DNA of 12,874 nucleotides from contig JAEZSL010000250.1 in assembly GCA_023443925.1 (NCBI GenBank), positions 1-12,874 of the forward strand. Direction: 5' to 3'. Made by a program: the position numbers and the translations under genes. This DNA is from Bacillota bacterium. Lineage in GTDB: Bacteria; Bacillota_A; Clostridia; Lachnospirales; Lachnospiraceae. A model generated the notes under the pieces. That model did no database searches, was not told the origin of the DNA, and saw only the letters and a list, made by a program, of their open reading frames with translations. This document shows positions 4,976 through 12,014 of this stretch, one piece after another (within the stretch, counting starts at the first letter, position 1; every line of letters begins with the position of its first letter).

Positions 4976-5004
4976 ATTATAGCAGAGAAGAGTGTGCGCT
5001 TCAA
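4976..5004 (-). promoter_or_regulatory. Promoter of the VOC-family gene
   Basis: On the minus strand TTGAAG (5004-4999) and a perfect TATAAT (4981-4976) are spaced 17 bp, about 65 bp before the start codon. The -35 hexamer begins only 5 bp from the first unit of the 27-bp tandem array, so the array occupies the activator/UP-element zone of this promoter. Confidence 0.75.
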
Positions 5005-5008
5005 GATT

Positions 5009-5205
5009 TTAATAACTTTATCTGCAGACTGAATCTTAATAACTTTGACTGAAGTCAGAATATTAATAACTTTGTCTACAGTCTGAATCTTTTTAACTTT
5101 GACTGCAGTCTGAATATTAATATCTTGTCCGCAGTCTGAATCTTAATATCTTGTCCGCAGTCTGAATCTTTTTAACTTTGTCCGCAGTCTGAATCTTTTT
5201 AAGGT
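5009..5205. repeat. Tandem array of seven 26-27 bp repeats plus a partial unit
   Basis: Units begin at 5009, 5036, 5063, 5090, 5117, 5143 and 5169. Five are 27 bp and two (5117, 5143) are 26 bp; a partial eighth starts at 5196. The pattern is TTAATAAC-TTTGTCCGCAGTC-TGAATC. Most units carry a short dyad at the centre (GACTGCAGTC in its best form). Units differ by point changes and by TTAATA versus TTTTTA starts. There is no unique spacer, so it is not CRISPR, and the mixed lengths exclude a coding repeat. It fills the space between the DUF454 stop and the VOC gene promoter. Confidence 0.92.
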
Positions 5206-5213
5206 TAATTTCC

Positions 5214-5579
5214 CTAGCTTCTCGTTTTAAGCTTACCAATATGAATTGTCACACATATGCCAATAAAGGTTAATAAGACCGTTAGAAAAAGCGTCTTTAT
5301 TAATACCATGGAAATTATAAGACCGGTCCATAAAAAGAAGATGGCACGGATTTTGACTATTCTCGGCACTCCTGTTTTATGGCGGTAATTTTCAATATAA
5401 CTTCCAAAATACCGGTTTCTCATTAATATGGCTTCCATTCTGGGACTGCCTGCCGAAAAACAGCCTGCTGCCAGCAGGAAAAAGGGGGTGGTCGGCAAGA
5501 CCGGCAGAAAAATCCCTGCCGTCCCCAGTGACAGAGACAAAAATCCAACTATAGTCAGTAATATATTTTTAATGTTCAT
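5214..5579 (-). CDS. DUF454 (YbaN-family) inner membrane protein
   Basis: This 121-residue protein matches the DUF454/YbaN family. It opens with a hydrophobic helix (about 6-24) followed by the family signature GTAGIFLPVLPTTPFFLLAAGCF (about 19-41). A basic cytoplasmic segment RNRYFGSYIENYRHKTGVPR (about 54-73) comes next, then one or two closely packed helices from about 78 to 115. It is an integral membrane protein whose biochemical role is not established. GGGAG lies 6 bases before the ATG. The leader has two hairpins followed by GATGGGAGT, the same layout as the repeated cassette ahead of the DUF1858 gene at 7306. No separate strong promoter was found, so it may depend on read-through past the 5611-5645 hairpin. 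Confidence 0.88.
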   Translation of the reverse strand: MNIKNILLTIVGFLSLSLGTAGIFLPVLPTTPFFLLAAGCFSAGSPRMEAILMRNRYFGSYIENYRHKTGVPRIVKIRAIFFLWTGLIISMVLIKTLFLTVLLTFIGICVTIHIGKLKTRS

Positions 5580-5640
5580 GACTTACTCCCATCCACGTGC
5601 TTTGGCACGCATTAAAAAGTTGAAAGTGTTTATCTTTCAA
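5569..5640 (-). other. Possible 23-codon leader ORF before the DUF454 gene
   Basis: On the minus strand AAGGGG is followed 5 bases later by TTG-AAA and 23 codons to a TAA that overlaps the first codons of the DUF454 gene in another frame. The ORF spans both leader hairpins. The same SD-TTG-AAA opening and the same 23-codon length occur in the cassette copy at 8330-8400. Expression is inference; the similarity could reflect shared RNA structure only. Confidence 0.25.
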
Positions 5641-5645
5641 CTTTT
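5580..5645 (-). promoter_or_regulatory. Two-hairpin leader of DUF454, doubling as terminator for the DUF438 gene
   Basis: Hairpin 1 is a perfect 12-bp stem, AAAAGTTGAAAG / CTTTCAACTTTT (5615-5626 and 5634-5645), followed on the minus strand by TTTTTAAT, so it can act as an intrinsic terminator for the DUF438 gene ending at 5704. Hairpin 2 is CGTGC-N4-GCACG (5596-5609), followed by GGATGGGAGT and the DUF454 start. Order, stem-loop types and SD parallel the cassette at 7311-7381 although the sequence has diverged. Confidence 0.6.
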
Positions 5646-5660
5646 CCCCTTTCTGGCTTT

Positions 5661-7075: not shown

Positions 7076-7306
7076 TTATTCCAATATTTCATAACCTTTA
7101 TCAGCAAATGCCTGCTTCACGGTGTCCAAACTAATCTTTTTCATTACAGCTCCTTTGGGTATGGTCATAAACCTGCCGGCGGTTTTAAGCATACCCGGTT
7201 TCGTGATATCCGTAAATCCGATTCCGGATAAGATTTCTGCTGCCTCCGGATACTTACTGCATATTTCATATACGGTTTTATTCAAATCAATAACTTTCTC
7301 CTGCAT
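7076..7306 (-). CDS. DUF1858 domain protein
   Basis: This 76-residue protein is a stand-alone DUF1858 domain, the small helical fold related to the N-terminal domain of ScdA/RIC proteins. The start VIDLNKTVYEICSKYPEAAEIL, then GIGFTDITKPGMLKTAGRFMTI and ISLDTVKQAF, are typical. Unlike the redox-disulfide subgroup it has no Cys-x2-Cys, only Cys15. Fused DUF1858-DUF438 proteins are common, so it probably works with the next gene. I use the ATG at 7306, with GGGAG 5 bases upstream. However, an in-frame TTG at 7378, also with a good SD (AGAGG), would add a 24-residue N-terminus encoded entirely by the repeat cassette at 7311-7381. Which start is used cannot be settled from sequence. Confidence 0.82.
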   Translation of the reverse strand: MQEKVIDLNKTVYEICSKYPEAAEILSGIGFTDITKPGMLKTAGRFMTIPKGAVMKKISLDTVKQAFADKGYEILE

Positions 7307-7310
7307 AATA

Positions 7311-7381
7311 ACTCCCATCTGTGCGCTTAAGCGCACGTATAAATCAAGATGTTGAAAAACTGTATTTCGTTTTTTCAACCT
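7311..7381 (-). repeat. Leader cassette X, copy A (before DUF1858)
   Basis: This 71-bp element is identical to copies at 8258-8327 and 8330-8400 except for one substitution and a 5/6 T-run difference. In transcript order it holds hairpin 1 (GTTGAAAAAC/GTTTTTCAAC, loop GAAATACA; 7379-7351), a spacer, a perfect 16-bp palindrome GTGCGCTTAAGCGCAC (7336-7321) and GATGGGAGT, which serves as the DUF1858 ribosome binding site. Confidence 0.93.
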
Positions 7382-7462
7382 AACCTCTTTTCTGAGTATT
7401 CTTATTTTCGATTGAATATATGCGTTATTTATTAGTTGAAAAACGGACTTTTTTACAACTTT
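7382..7462 (-). repeat. Leader cassette Y', degenerate copy after the RIC gene
   Basis: This segment aligns with the RIC leader at 8170-8257: both have TAACCTCTTT, CTGA-TATT, TCGATT-AATAT and TAGTTGAAAAA in the same order. Hairpin 1 survives (GTTGAAAAA against TTTTTACAAC with one bulge, 7435-7460), but the second AT-rich stem has decayed. It lies between the RIC stop and cassette X copy A and retains AAAGAGG, now placed 5 bases before a TTG. Confidence 0.75.
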
Positions 7463-7476
7463 TCCAATGGCTTTAA

Positions 7477-8169
7477 TCAGCCGCGGATCGAATAGCTTTT
7501 AAGTAGAATATTGTTTTCAAGGTGTATATGCTGGTGCAGATCCTGTTCCAACTCTTCCAGCATGGAATAGGATTTTCTATAAGTTCCGCAAGCATCTTCC
7601 GGGAGCTTATAATTACCGGAGACTTCTCTTAATTTTCTTAAAATTTCACCGGCAGCTTCGTGCTCCGATATGATTTCATCCGTTAAAGAGAGAACCTCAT
7701 CATAATTTTCCTCAACCTGTTCCAGCACCGGAAACAAAAGGGTCTCTTCTTTTAATAAATGCTGTTCCAAATCTGTTTTCAGCCTGCCAAATAACTGATT
7801 TATTTCAAACAGTTCGCGGTGATTCCTGCCATGAACCCTGACTATGGTGTTGAGCAAATCGGCTGTTTCCGGTAAGGTTTTTCTCAAATAGCCGTGATGA
7901 GTATCCTCTATATATGCCGTCAGGACTGCCGGACTCATTTCATCAAAGTGATCTCCCAGACTCCCATATTCCTCCTGACGGTTTGAGAAAGCTTTAATTA
8001 ATTTCTCATAAACCTCAGATTCATTTAATTTCTGCTCCTTAATAACCTCCGTAAGATTCCGGTGTCCGCCGCAGCAATAATCAATGCCAAATTCACGAAA
8101 AATCTCAGTTGCCTTAGGTACTGCAGTCACGACATCGCCTATACTCATATTTTTATCCAGATTATTCAT
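7477..8169 (-). CDS. RIC/ScdA-type di-iron iron-sulfur cluster repair protein
   Basis: Proteins of this family (ScdA, YtfE) restore Fe-S clusters damaged by NO or oxidants, using a hemerythrin-like di-iron centre in the cytoplasm. The 230-residue product has the ScdA_N/DUF542 domain (about 5-60) with the signature DYCCGGHRNL (Cys32, Cys33), then a four-helix HHE domain (about 80-226). Likely iron ligands are His91 or 92, His113 or 117, His137 with Glu141 (HLLKE), His170 and His214 with Glu218 (HIHLE). Length is normal. AGAGG lies 5 bases before the ATG, directly after an 11-bp hairpin. Its promoter (8437-8478) carries an FNR-type site at a class II position, and its leader of about 260 nt is built of three repeat cassettes. 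DUF1858 and DUF438 genes follow. Confidence 0.93.
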   Translation of the reverse strand: MNNLDKNMSIGDVVTAVPKATEIFREFGIDYCCGGHRNLTEVIKEQKLNESEVYEKLIKAFSNRQEEYGSLGDHFDEMSPAVLTAYIEDTHHGYLRKTLPETADLLNTIVRVHGRNHRELFEINQLFGRLKTDLEQHLLKEETLLFPVLEQVEENYDEVLSLTDEIISEHEAAGEILRKLREVSGNYKLPEDACGTYRKSYSMLEELEQDLHQHIHLENNILLKSYSIRG

Positions 8170-8257
8170 ATTAACCTCTTTCCTGAATATTTAATCATCG
8201 ATTAAATATTCGATAATCAGTAGTTGAAAAAACAGCTTTTCGTTTTTTTCAACCTAA
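8170..8257 (-). repeat. Leader cassette Y (immediately before RIC)
   Basis: In transcript order this has hairpin 1 (GTTGAAAAAA/TTTTTTCAAC, 8253-8244 and 8232-8223), a perfect 11-bp AT-rich hairpin (GAATATTTAAT/ATTAAATATTC, 8211-8201 and 8195-8185, 5-nt loop) and AGGAAAGAGG, the RIC ribosome binding site. It has the same architecture as cassette X but a different second stem. A degenerate copy lies at 7382-7462. Confidence 0.85.
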
Positions 8258-8327
8258 ACTCCTATCTGTGCGCTTAAGCGCACGTATAAATCAAGATGTT
8301 GAAAAACTGTATTTCGTTTTTCAACCT
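8258..8327 (-). repeat. Leader cassette X, copy B1
   Basis: This 70-bp copy matches copy B2 with a 72-bp period. The palindrome GTGCGCTTAAGCGCAC is at 8268-8283. It ends in ATAGGAGTTT, 6 bases before a TTG that opens the next cassette. On the transcribed strand its homopolymer is A5 rather than A6, so a TTG-initiated reading frame stops after 16 codons inside the palindrome. Confidence 0.93.
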
Positions 8328-8397
8328 AAACTCCTATCTGTGCGCTTAAGCGCACGTATAAATCAAGATGTTGAAAAACTGTATTTCGTTTTTTCAA
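8326..8397 (-). other. Possible 23-codon leader ORF in cassette copy B2
   Basis: GAGAGG is followed 6 bases later by TTG-AAA-AAA-CGA and 23 codons ending in TAG at 8328-8326. One base later another TTG opens the next cassette, preceded by AGGAG, an arrangement that would allow coupled re-initiation. No independent evidence of translation is available from sequence. Confidence 0.3.
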
Positions 8398-8400
8398 CCT
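8330..8400 (-). repeat. Leader cassette X, copy B2
   Basis: This is the promoter-proximal copy of the 71-bp cassette, beginning about 30 nt after the predicted transcription start near 8430. The palindrome is at 8340-8355 and hairpin 1 at about 8371-8399. It is identical to copy A apart from C-to-T in the SD segment. Confidence 0.93.
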
Positions 8401-8436
8401 ATTCCTCTCTGGTGATATTGTTTCTTTGTTGAATTC

Positions 8437-8478
8437 ATTATAACCTAAGTTAAGCTTTCATTCTGTGATTCAAATCAA
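8437..8478 (-). promoter_or_regulatory. FNR-type class II promoter of the RIC gene
   Basis: On the minus strand TTGAT-TTGA-ATCAC (8478-8465) matches nine of ten positions of the FNR consensus. Its centre, 8471.5, is 29.5 bp upstream of a perfect TATAAT (8442-8437), placing it about -41.5 from a start near 8430. The hexamer at the -35 position (CAGAAT) is poor, as expected for an activator-dependent promoter. The flavodiiron gene has the same layout. Confidence 0.75.
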
Positions 8479-8580
8479 ACTATTAATATTTTTATTAAGC
8501 TTTAATGTGAAAAATACGGTGAACTCTCAATATAAAACGCTTTCTATTATAAAGTTAACCGCTTAATTATAAATTCACCA

Positions 8581-8648
8581 TTGACAAATATTGTTTGCGT
8601 ATTATAATAGTAAGTGTACTTATTATATGTATACTTACTATTATAATA
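8581..8648 (+). promoter_or_regulatory. marR promoter with large palindromic operator
   Basis: TTGACA (8581-8586) and TATAAT (8603-8608) with a 16-bp spacer form a near-consensus promoter. A perfect 16-bp inverted repeat, TATTATAATAGTAAGT (8600-8615) and ACTTACTATTATAATA (8633-8648), overlaps the -10 and the start point. Inside it lie two smaller dyads, TAAGTGTACTTA and TATGTATACTTA, typical in size for MarR dimers. Autorepression is the simple reading. Confidence 0.85.
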
Positions 8649-9576: not shown

Positions 9577-10293
9577 TTACACATCTGCTGTTTCCTGTAA
9601 TACACTTTCTTTTAGTATCAGCAGGGATTTATTACTGACAGAACAAATGACACCCTCACTCTCTAACTGTCCTAGTTTACGGCTTACGGTTTCTCTTGCC
9701 ACCCCAAGATAGTTTGCCATACCTTCACGGCTTAAGGGAAGTCTCACCAGAATTCCCTCCGGAACTTTCTTACCGTACTTGTCCGAAAAATCCAGCAACA
9801 GGGAACTAATTCTTGCATCCACGCTTCGGACACCCATGCTTTGCATGGCACTTTCCAGCCTTGACATACGGCTGCCTAATTCCTCTATAATTTTAATAGC
9901 AATTCCCGGATAATGCTGCAGCAGCTGGGTGAAATGCTCTTTTGTCAGCATGCATACTTTAACGGAGGTCAACGCCTCCACGGTATAAGCAGCTGTCTGG
10001 TTGCTTAACAGATACTGTTCACCAAAAAAATCGCCTTCTGAAAATACATATAGAATCTGTTCTCTCCCTTCCGGAGTGTATTTATAAGCCTTTACACTAC
10101 CTTCATTGATAATAATGATAGAGTCCAGAGTATCCCCCAGATTAAAAACTGCCTGCCCCTTTTTATACTCCACATGCTCAATCCATTCTGAAATGTTTAC
10201 CAGATCTTTGTGATCCAGTACAGAAAAAATAGGTACTTTATGGATGCACAGATGATTGGAACAATGGATACAGCTTTTTTCTGCTAAAGACAT
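9577..10293 (-). CDS. Crp/Fnr-family regulator, probable FNR-like [4Fe-4S] sensor
   Basis: This 238-residue protein has a cyclic-nucleotide-binding-type beta-roll (about 25-120), a long dimerisation helix (about 125-155) and a C-terminal winged helix (about 185-230). The N-terminus carries Cys8-x2-Cys11-x4-Cys16. A fourth cysteine, Cys114 in TSVKVCML, aligns with E. coli FNR Cys122 (TSMVCEIP). Together these resemble the four ligands of the FNR [4Fe-4S] cluster, so O2 or NO sensing is likely. The recognition helix reads ARETVSRKL: it keeps the FNR Glu-x2-Ser-Arg and also the Arg that CRP uses. The E. coli ArcA/CRP cAMP pocket is not evident. An AAAGGA site precedes the ATG. FNR-type sites in front of the RIC and flavodiiron genes are its most plausible targets. 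Confidence 0.9.
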   Translation of the reverse strand: MSLAEKSCIHCSNHLCIHKVPIFSVLDHKDLVNISEWIEHVEYKKGQAVFNLGDTLDSIIIINEGSVKAYKYTPEGREQILYVFSEGDFFGEQYLLSNQTAAYTVEALTSVKVCMLTKEHFTQLLQHYPGIAIKIIEELGSRMSRLESAMQSMGVRSVDARISSLLLDFSDKYGKKVPEGILVRLPLSREGMANYLGVARETVSRKLGQLESEGVICSVSNKSLLILKESVLQETADV

Positions 10294-11972: not shown

Positions 11973-12014
11973 AGTATACCACCTTCCCTTTTTCTAAACT
12001 ATGATTTAAATCAC
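11973..12014 (-). promoter_or_regulatory. FNR-type class II promoter of the flavodiiron gene
   Basis: The perfect palindrome TGATTTAAATCA (12002-12013) gives TGAT-N4-ATCA centred at 12007.5. A TATACT -10 (11978-11973) lies 29.5 bp away, so the site is centred at about -41.5 from a start near 11966. The -35 position reads TAGTTT, a poor match. Site sequence and spacing equal those of the RIC promoter. Confidence 0.75.

Follow-up and report, generated by a model that had tools for sequence, protein, structure and literature searches.

A short two-hairpin cassette with its own SD sequence lies before many start codons in some Lachnospiraceae and is probably a mobile leader element

The window analysed here is a stretch of 12,874 nucleotides from a Lachnospiraceae genome (contig JAEZSL010000250.1), in which genes for a RIC protein, a DUF1858 protein and a DUF454 protein lie on the minus strand, each preceded by one or more short structured cassettes (Table 1); the window also encodes a DUF438/hemerythrin/PAS protein, as recognised with Pfam. 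A preliminary description had reported three near-identical copies of a unit, here called X, each with two hairpins and an SD sequence, in the transcript order X-X-Y-RIC-Y'-X-DUF1858, and inspection of the letters on the minus strand confirmed both the copies and the order. A fourth X, located before the DUF454 gene, had been missed. Each of the three reported X copies combines a first hairpin, P1 (GTTGAAAAAC..GTTTTTCAAC), with the palindrome GTGCGCTTAAGCGCAC and a GGAG; copy 3 has GATGGGAG in place of the GATAGGAG of the other copies, and the first arm of copy 2 carries A5, not A6.

Table 1 Cassettes, genes and leader signals of the RIC, DUF1858 and DUF454 region of the window.
Feature	Coordinates	Strand	Remarks
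Presumed RIC promoter -10 box (TATAAT)	8437..8442	minus	Upstream of the cassettes; read directly; TTATACT equivalently placed in L001-L006
Former native SD of RIC (AGAGAGGAATAG)	8399..8410	minus	Now 5' of the first cassette; from orthologue comparison
Cassette X, copy 1	8329..8398	minus	P1 8370-8398, linker 8356-8369, P2 8340-8355, SD GGAG 8331-8334
Cassette X, copy 2	8257..8325	minus	P1 8298-8325, linker 8284-8297, P2 8268-8283, SD GGAG 8259-8262
Cassette Y	8170..8253	minus	P1 8223-8253, linker 8212-8222, P2 8185-8211, SD GAGG 8175-8178; RIC ATG at 8169 follows
RIC gene (ScdA_N + hemerythrin)	7477..8169	minus	Pfam PF04405, PF01814
Degenerate cassette Y'	7381..7459	minus	5' of X copy 3; kinship to Y judged by eye
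Cassette X, copy 3	7310..7379	minus	SD GGAG 7312-7315, 5 nt before ATG at 7306
DUF1858 gene	7076..7306	minus	PF08984
Likely former native SD of the DUF454 gene (AGAAAGGGGAAA)	5643..5654	minus	L001 orthologue reads GAAAGGAAATTAT-ATG without a cassette
Fourth X cassette, diverged	5580..5642	minus	SD GGAG 5586-5589; model R1 match at 5586-5623, 28 bits
DUF454 gene, led by the fourth X	5214..5579	minus	PF04304

Several other features accompany these genes. Just 3' of the DUF454 gene, at 5001-5214, lie diverged 27-bp direct repeats (like TCTGAATCTTAATAACTTTGACTGCAG), which appear in a repeat listing as six overlapping 54-nt members spaced mostly by 27 nt. A CRP/FNR-like site, TTTGATTTGAATCACAG, precedes RIC at 8463-8479 on the minus strand, with a similar site seen by eye before RIC in the related loci L001-L006, and another, GTGATTTAAATCA, precedes a flavodiiron-type gene at 12002-12014, also on the minus strand; a CRP-family regulator gene occupies 9577-10293, and its orthologue lies directly before RIC in L001-L007. 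Between the RIC operon and a divergent MarR gene, a 24-nt inverted repeat at 8600-8648, with arms that are 92% complementary and 1 nt apart, is perhaps a MarR operator.

X measures about 60-70 bp and is laid out as the P1 hairpin, a UCYUGAUUU linker, a covarying second hairpin (P2) and the SD, with the start codon about 5 nt further on; the left-end hairpin opens with a start-like NTGAA, and the right end consists of SD and spacer. When compared with dinucleotide shuffles, the predicted folds of X copy 2 (200/200 shuffles beaten, z -4.6), of X copy 3 (198/200, z -2.8) and of Y with the RIC start (200/200, z -3.8) were more stable, while six further folds ranged from z -6.4 (the Y of L195) to -0.95 (L155), three of them, including that Y, at or near -4 or below and three weak (-2.4, -1.7 and -0.95). 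In P2, 96.7% of cells are paired, with two-sided changes in 6/6 base pairs of alignment A2, whose 96 distinct rows were fitted to the model, and in 3/6 pairs of the MAFFT alignment A1 of 25 cores, in which pairing is likewise 96.7%. P2 stems tend to be lineage-specific and shared among unrelated loci, with GCCCGC/GCGGGC in genome G271 (14 exact), GCGCGC/GCGCGC in G114 (10), GTGTGC/GCACAC in G005 (10, one among several stems there) and GTGCGC/GCGCAC in the window (3). The sequence of P1 is variable, and a best-hairpin search run without a shuffle control scored at least 7.5 in 40 of 67 start-site copies. The P2 of Y has 12 pairs and is 93.4% paired in alignment A4 (24 rows).

Further cassette types were seen by eye at L135, L147, L149, L164, L017, L285 and L292; they have a similar P1 followed by a different right part (ACCACAAATTTGTGCT..CAAATTTG, or a GCAGTATCGCA..TGCGATATGC or GTGGCAGTGCCAC hairpin) and end in SD-like sequence, with either a start codon or an X following. 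Two other ideas about P1 were rejected. A conserved mini-ORF starting at the NTG of P1 was dropped on inspection by eye, because copies with A5 and A6 differ in frame and the frame of copy 3 continues into DUF1858, and the idea that each P1 pairs through its 3' arm with the start of its own gene in a locus-specific manner was discarded after own pairs proved no better than permuted ones (184/500 within-genome permutations reached the observed value).

The linker has two potential pairing partners at the SD. In alignment A1, pairing is possible in 98% of cells between its UCYU and the SD's RGGA, and in 84% between its CAUC and a GAUG before the SD; CAUC:GAUG was therefore rejected as the sole outer helix, 84% paired versus 98% for UCYU:RGGA. 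Because the SD is invariant, a covariation test of the SD pairing is not possible. For 60/70 elements, predicted folds left the SD less accessible than it was on average in shuffles of that element (mean 0.30 vs 0.43), a modest effect, with a mean rank among shuffles of 0.33. A partly occluded SD that can pair with UCYU would also be compatible with an RNA thermometer, in which a bulged anti-SD hairpin melts with heat; we give this explanation very little credence, since P2 itself does not hold the SD, the 25 of 106 downstream protein families that were shown reveal no heat-shock theme, and P1 and the tandem arrays would be left unexplained.

To relate the cassettes to genes, we read 99 matches of R1, a model built from the 25 cores of A1 that ends in GGAG and contains no start codon, in the window and in 80 stretches of G005, G114, G134 and G271 picked by R1 score. 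An open frame of at least 60 codons begins at +4 to +8 after 67/99 of these matches, at +5 in 43 of the 67, with ATG (58), GTG (7) or TTG (2) as start codon. Such a frame follows 89/1194 of the other GGAG sites in the same stretches (Fisher 8e-44) and 1/99 antisense cassette ends. The remainder comprises 13 upstream members of tandem arrays and 19 others, several of which, as judged by eye, lead into another cassette type that has a start codon behind it, and a few of which (e.g. L137) have no nearby start. The share at start sites is 38/47 in G005, 11/16 in G114, 6/10 in G134, 10/22 in G271 and 2/4 in the window; in a second sample, from G006, 36/40 further matches stand at a start (+3 to +9, frame of at least 40 codons). 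For Y, 20 of 27 pattern matches, a few of which are spurious, precede a start followed by at least 60 codons. Random intergenic copies with no link to start codons, the outcome that the preliminary description named as refuting its reading, are not the pattern of G005, G006 and G114; G271 comes closer to it, with its 10/22.

Seven of the ten long-frame matches in G271 start at GTG or TTG. At four loci of this genome (L136, L141, L146 and L152), TTAGTGTGAA or a similar sequence comes after the cassette SD, giving GTG starts that copy the left end of a unit. At L152, which encodes acetate kinase, the cassette-led frame would extend the protein past what we take to be its usual N-terminus.

Among the lineages searched, X is abundant in a few. 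A search for relatives of RIC gave 8 genomes, of which five carry the label Anaerocolumna, a genus of Lachnospiraceae. A 75-base query around X gave 13 to 42 matches each in G001 and G003-G006 at E<=10, the weak end of which must be chance, and R1, whose E-values are rough and for which at most 150 candidates were scored per genome, gave 14 matches at E<=1 in G001, 9 in G002, 9 in G003, 15 in G004, at least 81 in G005, at least 108 in G006, 2 in G007 and 1 in G008. Across the family, with 21 candidates scored per genome, 20/299 genomes had a match at E<=0.01; eight of these (G001, G003, G094, G114, G134, G171, G180 and G271) had at least five, and the other twelve had one or two. A further R1 count for G271 gave 33 matches at E<=0.01. 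At the level of the order, a search of 295 genomes at E<=1e-4 returned only G001 and G003, both known already. The Y family has DNA matches (E<=0.01) in G005 (26), G006 (31) and G001 (4), along with single matches of 20 nt in G094 and in G171. The genomes compared are partly MAGs or drafts. The unit therefore recurs in relatives as a dispersed family, which makes X more than a chance feature of one contig.

The preliminary description knew no named family with this architecture, and no Rfam 15 family came near its threshold: the search returned 7 weak matches of assorted families in the window at E<=5, all well below the gathering score, the one over X being to a plant-type miRNA model (24.6 bits against a gathering score of 100), and 3 matches in 18 related loci at E<=1, all to miRNA models below the gathering score. 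An origin from a phage or plasmid was rejected, with no match of the 1801-base leader region in plasmids, none of the unit in phages and none of one exact IUPAC pattern in the viral contigs searched.

Comparison of orthologous leaders indicates how the cassettes may have arrived. In L001-L006, the RIC leader runs from the TTATACT box to the SD and on to the ATG with no cassettes, the SD reading AGGAGGA(A/T)T..-ATG in L001 and L003-L006 and TGGAGAATGGAAT-ATG in L002; in the window, AGAGAGGAATAG stands where this SD lies and is followed by X-X-Y. Likewise, DUF454 orthologues without a cassette read GAAAGGAAATTATATG (L001) and AAAAAGGAAATAATGAAATG (L002) where the window has AGAAAGGGGAAA and then X, and the leader in L003 is unclear and may, by eye, hold another cassette type. 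A further case comes from G005 and G006, which are about 90% identical across most of the RIC region. At a gene named UvrA-like by eye, G005 reads AAGGAGATTAGTATGG, an empty site, and G006 has 69 extra nt between AAGGAGAT and TAGTATGG, i.e. between SD and start. The outgroup G002 (91% protein identity over 113 residues) reads AAGGAGACACAATATG with no unit, in a leader that differs otherwise as well. Because the unit is absent from both G005 and G002, a gain in G006 is the simplest account. This is the one insertion polarised by an outgroup; those at RIC and DUF454 are likely by comparison with orthologues.

The inserted G006 unit is 90% identical to another G006 copy, and in about two dozen more matches from G005 and G006 the similarity, at 83-95% identity, is confined to its left ~38 nt. 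In the flanks of L285 and L292, the left half shared with the inserted unit is followed by a different right half, so left halves are common to several cassette families. Among the 22 copies in G271, the 15 best unit pairs from different loci are 92-98% identical, with flanks (40 nt upstream and 32 nt downstream) at 15-44%. X thus has the short unit, unlinked loci and unrelated flanks by which a MITE or small dispersed repeat is recognised. Taken together, near-identical units in unrelated flanks, empty RIC orthologues and the empty UvrA-like sites make X look insertion-derived. The dispersed copies, one polarised SD-start insertion and two likely ones, and the SD at the 3' end lend good support to the suggestion in the preliminary description that a small mobile element lodges in leaders and brings an SD with it.

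Movement was gauged in the G005-G006 pair. Of 20 X-led genes taken from G005, 19 had a match in G006, and 18/19 carried an R1 match at the start (one of these, L243, may be a paralogue, its identity being only 73%; the remaining gene, L235, looks by eye like it has a degenerate X), which indicates slow movement in this pair; in the reverse direction, 16 of 20 G006 genes had a G005 match, with R1 present at the start in 8/16 and absent in 8/16, the UvrA-like gene with its clean empty site being one of the latter. Tandem number also varies between orthologues, with four R1 units before recG in G005 and one sense R1 match in G006.

By eye, the termini have no inverted ends, and the two flanks are alike only as SD-spacer-NTG. 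Among single elements with P1, 23/47 have an SD-like motif (GGAG, GAGG, AGGA, GGGA or GGGG) within 15 nt upstream of P1, compared with 74/368 control windows further upstream (p 7e-5), although an older cassette accounts for some of the 23. In 14/19 upstream copies, several of them from one array, the next unit provides an NTG at +5 or +6 after the GGAG, so that arrays repeat the SD-spacer-NTG register.

Elements of the IS200/IS605 and RAYT kind have two subterminal hairpins, tandem copies and a fixed left-flank sequence, and these properties would suit X if it were a MITE of a Y1 transposase, with its two hairpins as transposon ends and GGAG as the target. However, no mover gene was found: Y1_Tnp had no match (E<=0.001) in 6/12 motif-bearing genomes searched (G001, G002, G006, G094, G114 and G171, where R1 has 7 to 108 matches) and did match in 9/14 motif-poor genomes, so that we regard this origin as highly improbable. 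In REP/RAYT systems and MITEs, too, a genome contains numerous small palindromes that are mobilised in trans; X differs from REP/RAYT in its fixed orientation and position, as well as in this distribution of the transposase.

What the cassettes do for their host genes was approached through conservation and through the genes themselves. In 18 G005-G006 pairs, identity was 0.96 in the coding sequence, 0.91 from SD to start, 0.90 in P2, 0.84 in the linker, 0.74 in P1 and 0.69 upstream. The 65 of 67 downstream proteins that were scanned matched 106 Pfam families, with at most three proteins per family (the commonest being Response_reg, with 3), and thus do not share the metabolic theme expected of a riboswitch. 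Sharing of targets across genomes is rare among 72 proteins, the cases being an ACT protein and an ABC ATPase in G005 and G114, response regulators in G006 and G005 at 30% identity, and one pair from the closely related genomes G005 and G006; TsaB was recognised by eye as a target in both G005 and G271. None of the eight RIC loci fetched has cassettes before RIC, according to an R1 search and inspection of the leaders by eye. The link to RIC, NO or O2 hinted at earlier is therefore unsupported, and a RIC- or NO-specific regulator was rejected because RIC orthologues lack cassettes and the downstream genes are mixed. The broader proposal of a modular RNA regulator may hold: there is covariation in P2, and predicted folds partly hide the SD, but no signal, ligand or protein emerged, and the downstream families are mixed.

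In its most specific form, such regulation would mean that X is a cis-regulatory RNA passed on vertically, either riboswitch-like or recognised by a global RNA-binding protein such as CsrA, with a regulon of about 100 genes whose copies are regulon sites, not insertions. The covariation of P2, the stronger conservation of the linker than of P1, the 18/19 G006 counterparts of G005 sites that carry X, and a CsrA match above the cut-off in 12/12 motif-bearing genomes but only 8/14 motif-poor ones would all agree with this. On the other hand, the functional theme of a regulon is absent, distant genomes have few targets in common, 8/16 sites are unshared in the G006-to-G005 sample, empty sites with an SD exist, and P2 stems tend to belong to lineages at unrelated loci. 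Targets of CsrA have as their hallmark a GGA in a hairpin loop of the leader, and by eye neither X nor Y has such a loop. We consider a regulon RNA of this kind unlikely.

From the mixed functions and the distributions of CsrA and of Y1 transposase, we therefore place X as probably a mobile supplier of ribosome-binding sites, with a probable effect on translation strength. The literature searched, outside which most subscription papers fall, contained no description of this cassette element, and the closest systems in print within it, going by the portions of the sources available, are the TAACTGA repeats (PMC4679880) and BOX/RUP/SPRITE (PMC3049150). In the portions available, TAACTGA repeats of marine Beggiatoaceae, of which one genome has 169 direct-repeat sets, are described as mostly forward, immediately 5' of start codons, in tandem copies and with no downstream functional theme, and a translational role has been proposed; they are 7 bp long, bear little resemblance to an SD and seldom have a canonical SD nearby (PMC4679880). 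X resembles these repeats, as far as they are described there, in its sense orientation immediately before the start codons of many genes, and differs as a 60-70 bp two-hairpin unit that carries an SD; a check of the letters found no TAACTGA heptamer in the X and Y units of the window. BOX, RUP and SPRITE of Streptococcus pneumoniae are, according to the accessible part of the source, short, dispersed, structured and thought to be non-autonomous mobile elements, BOX being modular at 67-637 bp, and they are over-represented between convergent genes (PMC3049150), unlike X with its sense placement at start codons and its terminal SD. Like translational riboswitches and other SD-sequestering leaders, at least in the available parts of two RNA discovery papers (PMC11109978, PMC8632094), X has a conserved structure able to hide the SD; no word starting with "Lachno" occurs in the main texts of these two papers. 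Unlike such leaders, X precedes about 100 genes of mixed function per genome and has empty sites.

On this evidence, we think it likely that X is a non-autonomous leader element that inserts in sense into the spacer between SD and start codon, whereby the gene acquires a new ribosome-binding site that is partly occluded. X, its sister Y and, by eye, at least two further types would be short non-autonomous dispersed elements entering in this way, as seen at the one polarised site and as the comparisons suggest for RIC and DUF454. The old SD would stay upstream, and the cassette SD, positioned about 5 nt before the start, would take over. Units would then multiply in tandem, in keeping with the copy-number differences, and upstream copies would decay. 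P2, the UCYUGAU linker and the SD, whose divergence is lower, would be kept by selection, probably because they set translation, and the linker, which by its sequence can pair either with the SD (UCYU:RGGA) or with the GAUG (CAUC:GAUG), may switch the leader between closed and open forms.

More tentatively, and we would not yet bet on it, X could represent a new class of mobile elements, with the translation start as their homing site. The SD-spacer-NTG junction would then be both the target and the two ends of the element, insertion would keep the register, and the anti-SD linker would choose between the old and the new SD, leaving the host with a tunable ribosome-binding site and arrays that act as SD selectors formed by repeated homing.

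If the proposed explanation is true, a mobile repeat has replaced the ribosome-binding sites of about 1-2% of genes in some Lachnospiraceae (estimated from the 81 and 108 matches found in genomes of 6.4 and 5.5 Mb), including those of apparent housekeeping genes such as recG, tsaB, hisF, gyrA, clpP and the UvrA-like gene, as named by eye or by Pfam. The translation start signal would then serve a mobile element as its accepted target, and the element would be a natural source of new 5' leaders and a natural experiment on how SD-adjacent structure tunes translation.
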